A stretch of 64,000 nucleotides of DNA. It comes from Thiohalobacter thiocyanaticus. Lineage in GTDB: Bacteria > Pseudomonadota > Gammaproteobacteria > Thiohalobacterales > Thiohalobacteraceae. The notes beneath the pieces are model-generated. The model was not told the DNA's origin. It saw only the letters and a list, made by a program, of their open reading frames with translations, and did no database searches. The position numbers and the translations under genes are program-made. This document shows, in pieces, positions 42,714-45,953 of this stretch (its first letter is position 1; every line of letters starts with the position of its first letter). The DNA is taken from the NCBI RefSeq assembly GCF_002356355.1, contig NZ_AP018052.1, positions 2,728,001 to 2,792,000 of the forward strand, written 5' to 3'.

Positions 42714-43418
42714 TCAGACCTTGATGTAGGACCAGCCCTCACGCAGACGGCGCACGGCGTGTTCGACCGCACTCTCGTCCGTGCGCGTCCCTTCGAAGAA
42801 CACCGGCGTGATACCGGACTCACGCAGCCGATCAACGGCGTTATTGCAGGCAACCAGGCGGAAATTCTCATACCGATTGAGAATACTGGCGATGCGCTGC
42901 GCATAGGGCGAGGTATCCGCCCGCAGCAGATCCAGCCCGGAACTGTTGGCCAGTATCTCGACCTGGATACCCCGGTCCCGGTATTCACCCAGCAGCCGCT
43001 CCGACTGCAGCAGCACCTGTTCGAACTTGCGCGGGTCGGCCTCGTCGATGTGCAGCACCACCCGATAGCCGCTGGTTTCGATGTTCTCGATCATGGCGCT
43101 GTACAGATCCGGCATCTGCACCGGGCGCGCCAGCCAGCCGGCAGCGAAGGCGGCCAGCAGCAGCAGCACCGACGCTGCCATTCCGCATCGCGACACCCAG
43201 CGCGAGTGCTTCGCACTGACCTCGCAACGCTCGGCAGGCGGCTCGGCATCCTCGAAAGCGGACTGCATCCACTGCTTGGTCCGCTGCAGTTCGCACACCC
43301 GGGAGGCCAGCGCCCCATCGCATTCCATGGCTTCCAGCAGCGCCTGCTTGCGATCGGCGGCCAACTCGCCGTCGATATAGGCGTGCAGATCAAAATCGGT
43401 AAAACGCTCGGACTTCAT
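42714..43418 (-). CDS. Membrane anti-sigma factor with C-terminal DsrE-like domain
   Basis: 234 residues. The N-terminal part (1-75) has an anti-sigma opening, FTDFDLHAYIDGELAADRK, without the HxxxCxxC zinc motif. A single membrane helix follows at about 79-96. The rest (about 115-234) is predicted to be periplasmic and resembles the DsrE/DsrF-like fold: YRVVLHIDEADPRKFEQVL, a middle with VEILANSSGLDLLR, and LVACNNAVDRLRE with Cys191 at the family's conserved cysteine position. It would hold the sigma factor until the outer domain senses a signal, possibly sulfur. The ATG overlaps the sigma stop (ATGA). Confidence 0.82.
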   Translation of the reverse strand: MKSERFTDFDLHAYIDGELAADRKQALLEAMECDGALASRVCELQRTKQWMQSAFEDAEPPAERCEVSAKHSRWVSRCGMAASVLLLLAAFAAGWLARPVQMPDLYSAMIENIETSGYRVVLHIDEADPRKFEQVLLQSERLLGEYRDRGIQVEILANSSGLDLLRADTSPYAQRIASILNRYENFRLVACNNAVDRLRESGITPVFFEGTRTDESAVEHAVRRLREGWSYIKV

Positions 43419-43966
43419 CGTACTCTCCGCAACAACGCCACGTCCGGCTCGACCTCGGGATTCATGCGCCGCAGCGTCTGCTGCAGCGCCTTGCGCGCCC
43501 GATTGAGCCGACTCATGACCGTGCCGATCGGGATCTCCAGTATTTCCGCGACATCGGCATAGCTGAAGCCTTCCAGGTCAACCAGCGAGATCACCTCGCG
43601 CTGCCCGACCGACAGGCGGAACACGGCCTGGCGCACGTCCTGCACGATCCGCTGACGCTCGACCTGCTGCTCCAGCGTCGTTTCGCAGGCCAGGGAATCG
43701 GGTTCGCAGCCAGAATCGGGCTGCTGGCTGCGCAGATGCCGGCGCCAGCAATTGTTCAGGATACTGTAGAGCCAGGGATAGAGTTTCTCCAGATCGCGCA
43801 GCTGATGCCCCTTGCTCAGGCCGATGGCGATGGCCTCCTGCACCAGGTCGTCGGCCAGCATGCGGTCCCCGGTCCAGGCCAGGGCGACCTTGTAGAGCCG
43901 GCCACGGCTGCCGCCCACGCGCTCGCGCACGGCCAGGGTGGTACAGATTCTGCTGACAATCTTCAT
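43415..43966 (-). CDS. ECF-type RNA polymerase sigma factor
   Basis: 183 residues with sigma-70 region 2 (about 24-90: RLYKVALAWTGDRMLADDLVQEA, LYPWLYSILNNCWRRHLR) and region 4 (about 118-165: LSVGQREVISLVDLEGFSYADVAEILEIPIGTVMSRLNRARKAL). No region 3, hence ECF. It is coupled to the anti-sigma gene and divergent from the DsrE-porin unit. The ATG at 43966 is chosen; an in-frame ATG at 43984 lies upstream of the predicted -10 box and would not be transcribed from that promoter. This would make the mRNA nearly leaderless. Confidence 0.88.
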   Translation of the reverse strand: MKIVSRICTTLAVRERVGGSRGRLYKVALAWTGDRMLADDLVQEAIAIGLSKGHQLRDLEKLYPWLYSILNNCWRRHLRSQQPDSGCEPDSLACETTLEQQVERQRIVQDVRQAVFRLSVGQREVISLVDLEGFSYADVAEILEIPIGTVMSRLNRARKALQQTLRRMNPEVEPDVALLRRVR

Positions 43967-43975
43967 CCTTACCCG

Positions 43976-44002
43976 TAGATGCACCGCGCGGCCGTTTTAT
44001 TC
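43976..44002 (-). promoter_or_regulatory. Predicted ECF promoter of the sigma/anti-sigma unit
   Basis: On the minus strand GAATAAA (44002-43996), 15 bases, then ATCTA (43980-43976). The same motif with the same spacing occurs on the other strand before the DsrE gene. Divergent, matching promoters around an ECF gene are the usual sign of autoregulation. Confidence 0.65.
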
Positions 44003-44040
44003 AATTTTTTTTCACCGTCACCTGGCAGACCCGGCGGATG

Positions 44041-44067
44041 GAATAAAGCCTCACCGGCACCGCTCTA
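44041..44067 (+). promoter_or_regulatory. Predicted ECF promoter of the DsrE-porin unit
   Basis: GAATAAA (44041-44047), 15 bases, then CTCTA (44063-44067). Compare the minus-strand copy at 44002-43976. The transcript would start near 44074, about 45 bases before the DsrE start codon. Confidence 0.65.
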
Positions 44068-44119: not shown

Positions 44120-44578
44120 GTGATATCCAAACAACCCTGGCATCTCAGACTGTGGGCCGCCCTGCTCCTCGGCCTGCTGTCCACCGGCGCCCTGGCCGCA
44201 GGCAATCCGGACAAACCCTTCGCCGAAAAGCACGTGGTGCTGCAGATCAGCGACCCTGACCCGTTCAAGCAGACCCTGGTGCTGAATGTGGCCGGCAATC
44301 TGGTCAAGCACTATGGACCTGACAAGGTGGACGTCGAGATCGTCGCCTTCGGACCAGGCCTGCGGCTGCTGTTGGATGACAACGTCAATGCCGGACGCAT
44401 CGACAATCTGGTCGAATCCGCGCAGGTCAGATTCAGTGCCTGCGAAAACACCCTGGCCAAGTACACCCAGAACCTGGGGCACGAACCTGCACTCAATGCG
44501 CATGCCACGCATGTCTCCGCCGGCGTAGTGCGTATTCTCGATCTGATCGACCAGGGTTACACCCTGATCAAGCCATAA
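44120..44578 (+). CDS. Exported DsrE family protein
   Basis: 152 residues starting at a GTG with AGGAGG eight bases before it. A signal peptide covers 1-27 (cut near ALA-AGN). The mature domain is DsrE-like: KHVVLQISDPDPFKQTLVLNVAGNLVKHYG, VEIVAFGPGLRLLLDDN, and VRFSACENTLAKY with Cys108 at the position where sulfur-carrying members have their active cysteine. Cytoplasmic DsrE proteins move persulfide sulfur; exported ones are little studied. It heads a unit with the porin gene and is probably driven by the nearby ECF sigma factor. Confidence 0.88.
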   Translation: MISKQPWHLRLWAALLLGLLSTGALAAGNPDKPFAEKHVVLQISDPDPFKQTLVLNVAGNLVKHYGPDKVDVEIVAFGPGLRLLLDDNVNAGRIDNLVESAQVRFSACENTLAKYTQNLGHEPALNAHATHVSAGVVRILDLIDQGYTLIKP

Positions 44579-44606: not shown

Positions 44607-45953
44607 ATGTATAACACCAGAACATGCCTTGCCGCCGTGATCGCGGCAACCGGACTTGCTGCCGCCCTGCCGTCACAGGCCGCCAACTGGCTCATGCTCC
44701 AGGGCACCGAACCGGCCGGCGCGGCCGAACGTGCCCGCATCTGGGGTTTCATCCAACCGGAGTTCCAGTACACCGAGGGCACCAAACTCGAGGCCGGCCC
44801 GTTCAGCGGCCAGGACGCCATCTTCAACACCATCGGCCCGGACCGGGACGCCAGTTCCCAGTTCAACATCCGCCGTGCCCGTCTGGGCCTGCGCGGCCAG
44901 GGCTTTCCGCTGGACAGCAACACCAACTACTTCTTCCTGGTCGAGGCCGGCAACAACGGCATCACCAAGCCCGGCGGGGGCCTGGGCAGCCTGAAGCTGA
45001 CCGACGCCAGCGTGACCTTCAATCACTTCGATGCCGCGCGGGTCCGGGTGGGCCAGTTCAAGACACCGGGATCGGAAGAAGGCCTGAAGGCGATCCATGT
45101 GTTCGACTATGTCAACTTCACCAGTGTCACCGACGGCGTACTGCTGGAACGCTATATCGACGCCGACGGCAGCGCCCCCAATGACCCCAACGGCCCCAAC
45201 GGCCCGGTGGGGGCCTTCCGCGACATCGGCATCCAGCTGTTCCAGTCCTTCCGTCAGAACGACTGGGAGCACTCCTATGCCGTGATGGTCGGCAACGGCA
45301 ACGGCCTGGCCCGATCCGACAACAACAACGAGAAGGACATCTACCTGTACCTGTCCACGGAGAAGGTCTTCGGCGGCAAGGGCCCGCGCCGGCAGGGTTG
45401 GAAGGGCTTTGTCTGGTACCAGCAGGGTGATCGCACCCTTACCCTGGCCCAGGGCACGGACAGCACCGCCGATGACGTCGAGGAGGATTTCGAGCGCAAG
45501 CGCTGGGGTGTGGGCACCACCTACCTGAACGGCAAATACCGGGCGGCAGCGGAATACATCGTGGCCGACGGCATGATCCGCAACGGCAGCGACGGCGGCG
45601 CCGTGGTCGGCGCCCTGTCGAACAACGGCCTGTCCCGCGCCAGCCTGAACGTACTGCCGGAAGACGAGGCCGACGGCTGGTATCTGGATTTCGGCTACAA
45701 GATCCGGCCGGACATCGAACTGGACATCCGCTACGACCGCTTCAACCGGGCCACGGACACGGATCCGGCCGAACGCCGCTTCGACACCCTCACTCTGGGG
45801 GCGCAGTACTTCTTCAACAAGAAGACCCGCCTCATCTTGAACTATGAGTTCCGCGAGGCGGAGGCCCCGAACCTGCCCTCATCGCATCCTGCCAACCAGA
45901 TCCTGGACGGCATGGATGACCGCATCTCGGCCCAGATCCTGGCCATATTCTGA
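44607..45953 (+). CDS. Porin of the OprO/OprP (phosphate-selective porin) type
   Basis: 448 residues with a signal peptide (cut near SQA-ANW) and a strand-rich barrel. Typical family segments are FNIRRARLGLRGQ near the start (about residues 90-102), VRVGQFKTPGSEEGL, and a C-terminal strand ending ISAQILAIF with a terminal Phe. The start has GGAGG before it, 28 bases after the DsrE stop, so it is co-transcribed. The solute is unknown; oxyanions such as phosphate or sulfur species are possible. Followed by a terminator. Confidence 0.88.
   Translation: MYNTRTCLAAVIAATGLAAALPSQAANWLMLQGTEPAGAAERARIWGFIQPEFQYTEGTKLEAGPFSGQDAIFNTIGPDRDASSQFNIRRARLGLRGQGFPLDSNTNYFFLVEAGNNGITKPGGGLGSLKLTDASVTFNHFDAARVRVGQFKTPGSEEGLKAIHVFDYVNFTSVTDGVLLERYIDADGSAPNDPNGPNGPVGAFRDIGIQLFQSFRQNDWEHSYAVMVGNGNGLARSDNNNEKDIYLYLSTEKVFGGKGPRRQGWKGFVWYQQGDRTLTLAQGTDSTADDVEEDFERKRWGVGTTYLNGKYRAAAEYIVADGMIRNGSDGGAVVGALSNNGLSRASLNVLPEDEADGWYLDFGYKIRPDIELDIRYDRFNRATDTDPAERRFDTLTLGAQYFFNKKTRLILNYEFREAEAPNLPSSHPANQILDGMDDRISAQILAIF

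Follow-up and report, generated by a model that had tools for sequence, protein, structure and literature searches.

A DsrE-like periplasmic domain in an ECF26-like anti-sigma factor: a likely sensor of reduced sulfur in sulfur-oxidising bacteria

Introduction

What could a sulfur-carrier fold be doing on the far side of the membrane in an anti-sigma factor? Canonical DsrE is encoded together with dsrF and dsrH, resides in the cytoplasm and hands sulfur to DsrC. In the window, by which we mean the whole 64,000-nucleotide stretch of DNA analysed here, a minus-strand gene (42714..43418) encodes from its ATG a protein of 234 residues that, according to sequence matches and a structural model, is an anti-sigma factor with a DsrE-like periplasmic domain. 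Accounts of how gamma- and betaproteobacterial sulfur oxidisers sense extracytoplasmic thiosulfate or sulfide seem few, and the fusion protein is likely a sensor of reduced sulfur outside the cytoplasm in such organisms. As a specific candidate for extracytoplasmic thiosulfate and sulfide sensing, the fusion family would extend the ECF anti-sigma factors by a new sensor type and turn DsrE, familiar as a carrier of sulfur in the cytoplasm, into a receptor.

An anti-sigma domain, one membrane helix and a DsrE-like fold

The AlphaFold model (16 sequences) has three anti-sigma helices in residues 8-56, a membrane helix at residues 80-96 and a C-terminal alpha/beta domain, the last with a pLDDT of about 90. 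The three-helix domain (43251..43397) is placed on the cytoplasmic side, and the N-terminal part matches the anti-sigma factor adjoining S. meliloti RpoE4 over columns 1-58 (hhalign, E=8.6e-10). The single membrane helix of the model (43131..43181) coincides with a hydrophobic run that has Arg and Lys on its N-terminal side, and the DsrE-like domain, which is of the MTH1491 type by both sequence and structure matches, comprises residues 117-234 (42717..43070); all these parts are encoded on the minus strand. The first-pass annotation had described an anti-sigma opening, one membrane helix and a C-terminal half resembling DsrE, a layout borne out by hhalign, AlphaFold, phmmer and VIA-align. A zinc-binding (ZAS) anti-sigma factor was considered and is ruled out by the absence of the H-x3-C-x2-C motif from the window protein, as judged by reading its sequence; zf-HC2 reaches E=0.11 for this protein, below the cut-off, and is weak in 15 of 62 relatives.

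In a plain phmmer search, residues 117-233 match MTH1491 (PDB 1L1S) with E=2.6e-11, and a profile of 27 DsrE-like domains retrieves 1L1S at 4.5e-22, with ST0148 second. Folds were compared using VIA-align, plus Foldseek. In VIA-align the modelled C-terminal domain reaches a Z of 15.6 with 1L1S, 14.9 with ST0148 and 12.2 with YchN, and A. vinosum DsrE (2hy5_A, Z 10.9) and TusD (2d1p_A, Z 10.8) are found as well. The top ten are all DsrE/YchN-type folds, with Z from 10.7 to 15.6, and unrelated folds begin at 6.9. The comparison with DsrEFH and TusBCD that had been suggested for the predicted structure therefore returns a DsrE fold. A chance likeness or a shadow open reading frame is ruled out by family-wide orthologues together with the significant match in sequence and structure. 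Pfam and NCBIfam give the 234-residue protein no family name, and the Pfam DsrE profile search, also suggested at the outset, left the window protein undetected: PF02635 does not match it and matches 4 of 62 relatives weakly. This miss looks like a limit of the model, since more sensitive searches do detect the DsrE domain.

Strand 186-190 of the model stops directly ahead of Cys191 (codon 42846..42848, minus strand), and the conserved cysteine stands after the third core strand of the DsrE-like fold. The nearest solved structures, MTH1491 and ST0148 (PDB 1L1S, 2PD2), align over the whole domain and have their cysteine at the Cys191 position. Both of these stand alone as proteins of unknown function, whereas the window protein has its domain attached to a preceding membrane helix and anti-sigma domain. 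DsrE of DsrEFH and TusD of TusBCD have the same fold (Z about 10.9), and DsrE carries its sulfur on the conserved Cys78 (PMC3397948). Both are subunits of cytoplasmic sulfur-transfer complexes, whereas the fusion domain is predicted to be periplasmic and regulatory. Furthermore, the fusion gene has neither dsrF nor dsrH beside it, and a membrane helix precedes its DsrE domain, unlike in canonical DsrE.

Distribution, conservation and origin of the fusion family

Cys191, singled out in the first-pass annotation as the residue that orthologues should keep, is invariant: it is present in 119 of 119 full-length relatives, and just one glycine and one aspartate are equally fixed. The fusion protein is found in all 11 genomes of the window's taxonomic family, and its closest named relative is Thiohalobacter thiocyanaticus (83% at the anti-sigma/DsrE protein). 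A scan of one genome per species returned 111 relatives of the fusion protein, the best 80 of which belong to Thiohalobacter, Thiobacillus, Sulfuricella, Sulfuriferula, Hydrogenophilales, Thiogranum, Pandoraea, Cupriavidus and unnamed MAGs. Full-length fusions are encoded by 66 of the 369 sampled genomes of the class, about a fifth. In a phylum-wide sample, full-length copies occur solely in the window's class, the remaining matches consisting of the DsrE part and the stretch before it, and a plasmid collection yielded only DsrE-type proteins without the anti-sigma part. The family is thus widespread and concentrated in sulfur-oxidising Beta- and Gammaproteobacteria.

The DsrE domains of the anti-sigma factors form one clade with 100/99 support, separate from the exported DsrE proteins, in a tree of 126 columns whose inner branching is weak. 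A single fusion event fits this clade, and the family has an apparent single origin on sequence grounds. Repeated borrowing of DsrE from a local exported gene is ruled out by the same single clade standing apart from the exported proteins.

The sigma factor partner and its relation to ECF26

The partner is an ECF sigma factor (43415..43966, minus strand) with sigma-70 regions 2 and 4 recognised by Pfam and NCBIfam, and its stop codon overlaps the start of the anti-sigma gene (ATGA). As its start, the ATG at 43966 is preferred over a GTG at 43984, from comparison with the orthologue in locus L006 and from the position of the promoter, which ends about 10 bases before that ATG. All 79 loci that offer enough sequence have, by tblastn, a sigma gene immediately upstream of the fusion gene and in the same orientation. 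The window sigma factor is 37% identical to S. meliloti RpoE4, and by its sequence the sigma/anti-sigma pair appears ECF26-like.

The S. meliloti pairs RpoE4-EcfR4 and RpoE1-EcfR1 likewise consist of a sigma factor followed by a one-helix membrane anti-sigma factor with a homologous anti-sigma domain, and the ECF26 pairs of that organism share the promoter type and the tie to inorganic sulfur oxidation (PMC3511301, PMC6180224, PMC6527743). The targets differ, being sulfite oxidase for S. meliloti ECF26 and, by prediction, the exported DsrE/porin and sox genes here. The RpoE4-related anti-sigma gene of S. meliloti sits between the RpoE4-type sigma gene and sulfite oxidase genes. In hhalign, the periplasmic part of the RpoE4-linked anti-sigma factor gives no alignment with the DsrE domain, and for the C-terminal domains of the four ECF26 anti-sigma factors of S. 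meliloti the published comparison is with RsiW, not with DsrE (PMC6180224). The open-access literature searched contained no text tying DsrE to an anti-sigma sensor. This kind of system is already known, and a DsrE sensor domain within it has no precedent in the literature searched.

The divergent operon and the predicted regulon

On the plus strand, a conserved divergent operon encodes an exported DsrE-like protein of 152 residues with a signal-peptide-like N-terminus (44120..44578) and an outer-membrane porin of the Porin_O_P type (44607..45953). The DsrE part of the fusion protein matches this exported partner at 28% over 116 residues (E=2e-8). The first-pass annotation had placed Cys191 (VACNNA) where the partner has Cys108 (SACENT; codon 44441..44443, plus strand), and in the alignment the two cysteines do coincide. 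The exported partner alone matches 1L1S at 1e-5. A domain profile finds a divergent DsrE-like gene beside the sigma pair in 61 of 80 loci. A hydrophobic N-terminal stretch is common to all 75 of the DsrE-like ORFs counted, and a porin gene adjoins the pair in 41 of 81 loci.

Thiobacillus and Hydrogenophilales loci (L064-L131) contain several sequence types of exported DsrE, at times two in one locus, and types 1 and 2 split in the tree. Downstream of the anti-sigma gene and convergent with it, 25 loci have a conserved gene that by eye looks to encode a protease of the HtrA/Deg type (for example, Thiobacillus L092:8546-9724, minus strand); this neighbour possibly reflects mere synteny with a cytochrome bc1 region.

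The sigma/anti-sigma operon is preceded by an ECF26-like promoter, GAATAAA-N16-TCTA (43976..44002, minus strand), and the exported DsrE/porin operon by a divergent one, GGAATAAA-N16-TCTA (44040..44067, plus strand). Intergenic regions of 79 loci were searched for GAATAA-N15-19-CGTC/TCTA, TCTA being allowed beside CGTC. Sites point towards the sigma gene in 61 of the 79 loci, towards the divergent gene in 61 and in both directions in 53, the expectation from shuffled sequences being 0.65 and 1.1 loci. These sites, of the form GGAATAA...CGTC/TCTA, resemble the published ECF26 consensus, given as GGAATA/GT (PMC6180224) and as GGAAT/CGTC (PMC6527743), with a -35 of GGAAT(A) and a -10 of CGTC/GT expected at autoregulated and target promoters. 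The window's genus has a variant -10 element, ATCTA or CTCTA.

The exact pattern GAATAAA-N16-TCTA has four matches in the 3.23-Mb window genome (G000), and the reversed control pattern has none. The four sites lie at the sigma operon, the exported DsrE operon, a paralogue locus and an unlinked exported DsrE gene (G000:1860393); none is at the sox operon of this genome. The unlinked gene (L039:1588-2064, near G000:C1:1860480, plus strand), behind its ECF26-like promoter, encodes an exported DsrE of a second type (EKQKVVYHIN...), and two other Thiohalobacter genomes also have an unlinked exported DsrE behind the same promoter. The unlinked site was reached with a pattern derived from a single locus, and the gene behind it again encodes a DsrE-family protein, which independently supports an exported-DsrE regulon.

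Association with sox genes

Of the 66 fusion genomes 65 encode SoxB, as do 86 of the 303 that lack the fusion (Fisher p 9e-29, relatedness ignored), and the fusion genomes are spread over 40 family codes of the sample. The association with dsrA, present in 52 of the 66 fusion genomes, is also positive; it is weaker than that with SoxB and weakens within SoxB genomes. In the genome sample soxC has no association with the fusion (odds ratio 1.0), which speaks against a difference between SoxCD-containing and SoxCD-lacking oxidisers.

The linkage is also physical. A single strand carries the genes for sigma, anti-sigma, soxX, soxY, soxZ, soxA and soxB, in this order, in two genomes. Pandoraea terrae and Cupriavidus sp. 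BIS7 have a sox cluster led by soxC, with the divergent promoter about 230-265 bases ahead of that gene, and in Pandoraea an exported DsrE gene is inside the cluster. A further genome has a promoter of the ECF26-like form directly ahead of soxX. SoxX, Y, Z, A, B and C were named by NCBIfam above the cut-off where scanned, and soxZ outside Pandoraea and soxY of Cupriavidus by motif and position; the gene between soxC and soxY has no NCBIfam family match and would be soxD by position only. A TsuA/YeeE-like homologue of thiosulfate transporters, which scores under the family cut-off, is encoded (L128:1521-2666, minus strand) in a locus that also has sox genes, an exported DsrE and the fusion.

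A candidate sensing mechanism and its alternatives

We consider it probable that the ECF26-like pair senses periplasmic reduced sulfur via the DsrE cysteine. The sigma factor and its membrane anti-sigma factor would form a transmembrane switch, the DsrE domain being the periplasmic sensor. At rest, we infer, the N-terminal helices of the fusion protein would keep sigma at the membrane. Periplasmic processing of thiosulfate, sulfide or polysulfide would then lead to modification of Cys191, presumably as a persulfide or thiosulfonate, with sulfur reaching the residue directly or via the exported DsrE or another carrier. The changed DsrE domain would let sigma go through a conformational change or proteolysis, and free sigma would act on its own operon, on the exported DsrE/porin operon and, in some lineages, on the sox operon. 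The idea is readily testable through one residue (Cys191) and two short promoters.

That Cys191 accepts sulfur and so frees sigma, as first suggested from the window sequence, is plausible by analogy. In A. vinosum, DsrE-Cys78 specifically binds sulfur, which is then passed on (PMC3397948), and an archaeal DsrE (DsrE3A) carries thiosulfonate (PMC4175335). The sulfur-binding Cys78, the invariance of Cys191 and the sox association strengthen the proposed acceptor role. A. vinosum DsrEFH shows no direct uptake of sulfane sulfur from thiosulfate or glutathione persulfide (PMC3397948), so direct small-molecule sensing may not work, and sulfur could reasonably come by way of a donor protein, perhaps the exported DsrE. 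Sulfur handed over by this partner is one of several possible inputs. Because the two divergent operons have facing promoters of a single type, the exported protein could serve as input, as output or in both roles. The invariant cysteine could instead be structural or redox-active.

A transmembrane persulfide relay is possible, although we are doubtful of it: sulfur from periplasmic thiosulfate/sulfide oxidation would go from exported DsrE carriers to the fusion DsrE, and this transfer between proteins would itself signal the release of sigma and the induction of sulfur-oxidation genes. The exported protein might also act by contact, without chemistry: mixed oligomers with the fusion DsrE would let its supply or sulfur load set the state of the anti-sigma factor, as a feedback. 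The DsrE family does form hetero-oligomers (DsrEFH, TusBCD), and this reading suits the frequent divergent gene (61 of 80 loci) with its hydrophobic N-terminus and shared promoter type. However, contact would not require an invariant cysteine, and group B paralogues have no divergent exported DsrE at their own locus, and we regard contact sensing as unlikely.

Sulfite is a still less likely signal. If the pair behaved as the S. meliloti RpoE4 relatives, the cysteine would form an S-sulfonate; RpoE4, with which the sigma factor shares 37% identity and a common promoter consensus, answers to sulfite-generating compounds and controls SorT (PMC3511301). However, the anti-sigma factor linked to RpoE4 has an unrelated domain in the periplasm, so that the signal need not be common, and loci examined gene by gene have thiosulfate (sox) genes as neighbours instead of sulfite oxidases of the SorT type. 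A sensor of general thiol-redox or metal stress (for oxidants, copper or selenite/tellurite) that has a DsrE fold by happenstance would fit the single candidate reactive cysteine of the periplasmic domain and the weak, below cut-off match of the porin to ExtI of a selenite/tellurite operon, but is highly improbable given the very strong restriction to SoxB genomes, the sox linkage and the DsrE proteins as main predicted targets.

Sensing of reduced sulfur through the DsrE cysteine, the reading we prefer, would have counterparts in the sulfane-sulfur-responsive regulators SoxR and sHdrR (Hyphomicrobium denitrificans), which likewise exert sulfur-sensing control of thiosulfate oxidation (PMC12423496). 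These two are ArsR-type repressors (PMC12423496), whereas the fusion protein would do its sensing in the periplasm, as a transmembrane anti-sigma switch.

A paralogous pair and a candidate small RNA

The window genome encodes a second sigma/anti-sigma-DsrE pair outside the window (G000:C1:631937-632683, locus L002, minus strand), with a fusion protein 39% identical to the first and the cysteine motif FFACQTA. This pair adjoins a pilU-like gene and has no exported DsrE beside it. The divergent ECF26-type promoter at the paralogue locus has no clear gene behind it (L174:3460-3614; G000:C1:633459-633613, plus strand). The locus includes a stretch of about 130 nucleotides with a GTACTCCTCCACCCC element and a strong intrinsic terminator, which is kept in four genomes and partly in a fifth. 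Its Rfam matches, to anti-hemB, ar14, Betaproteobacteria toxic sRNA, SorX and Hrs13, are weak and sub-threshold, and they suggest a sigma-controlled small RNA.
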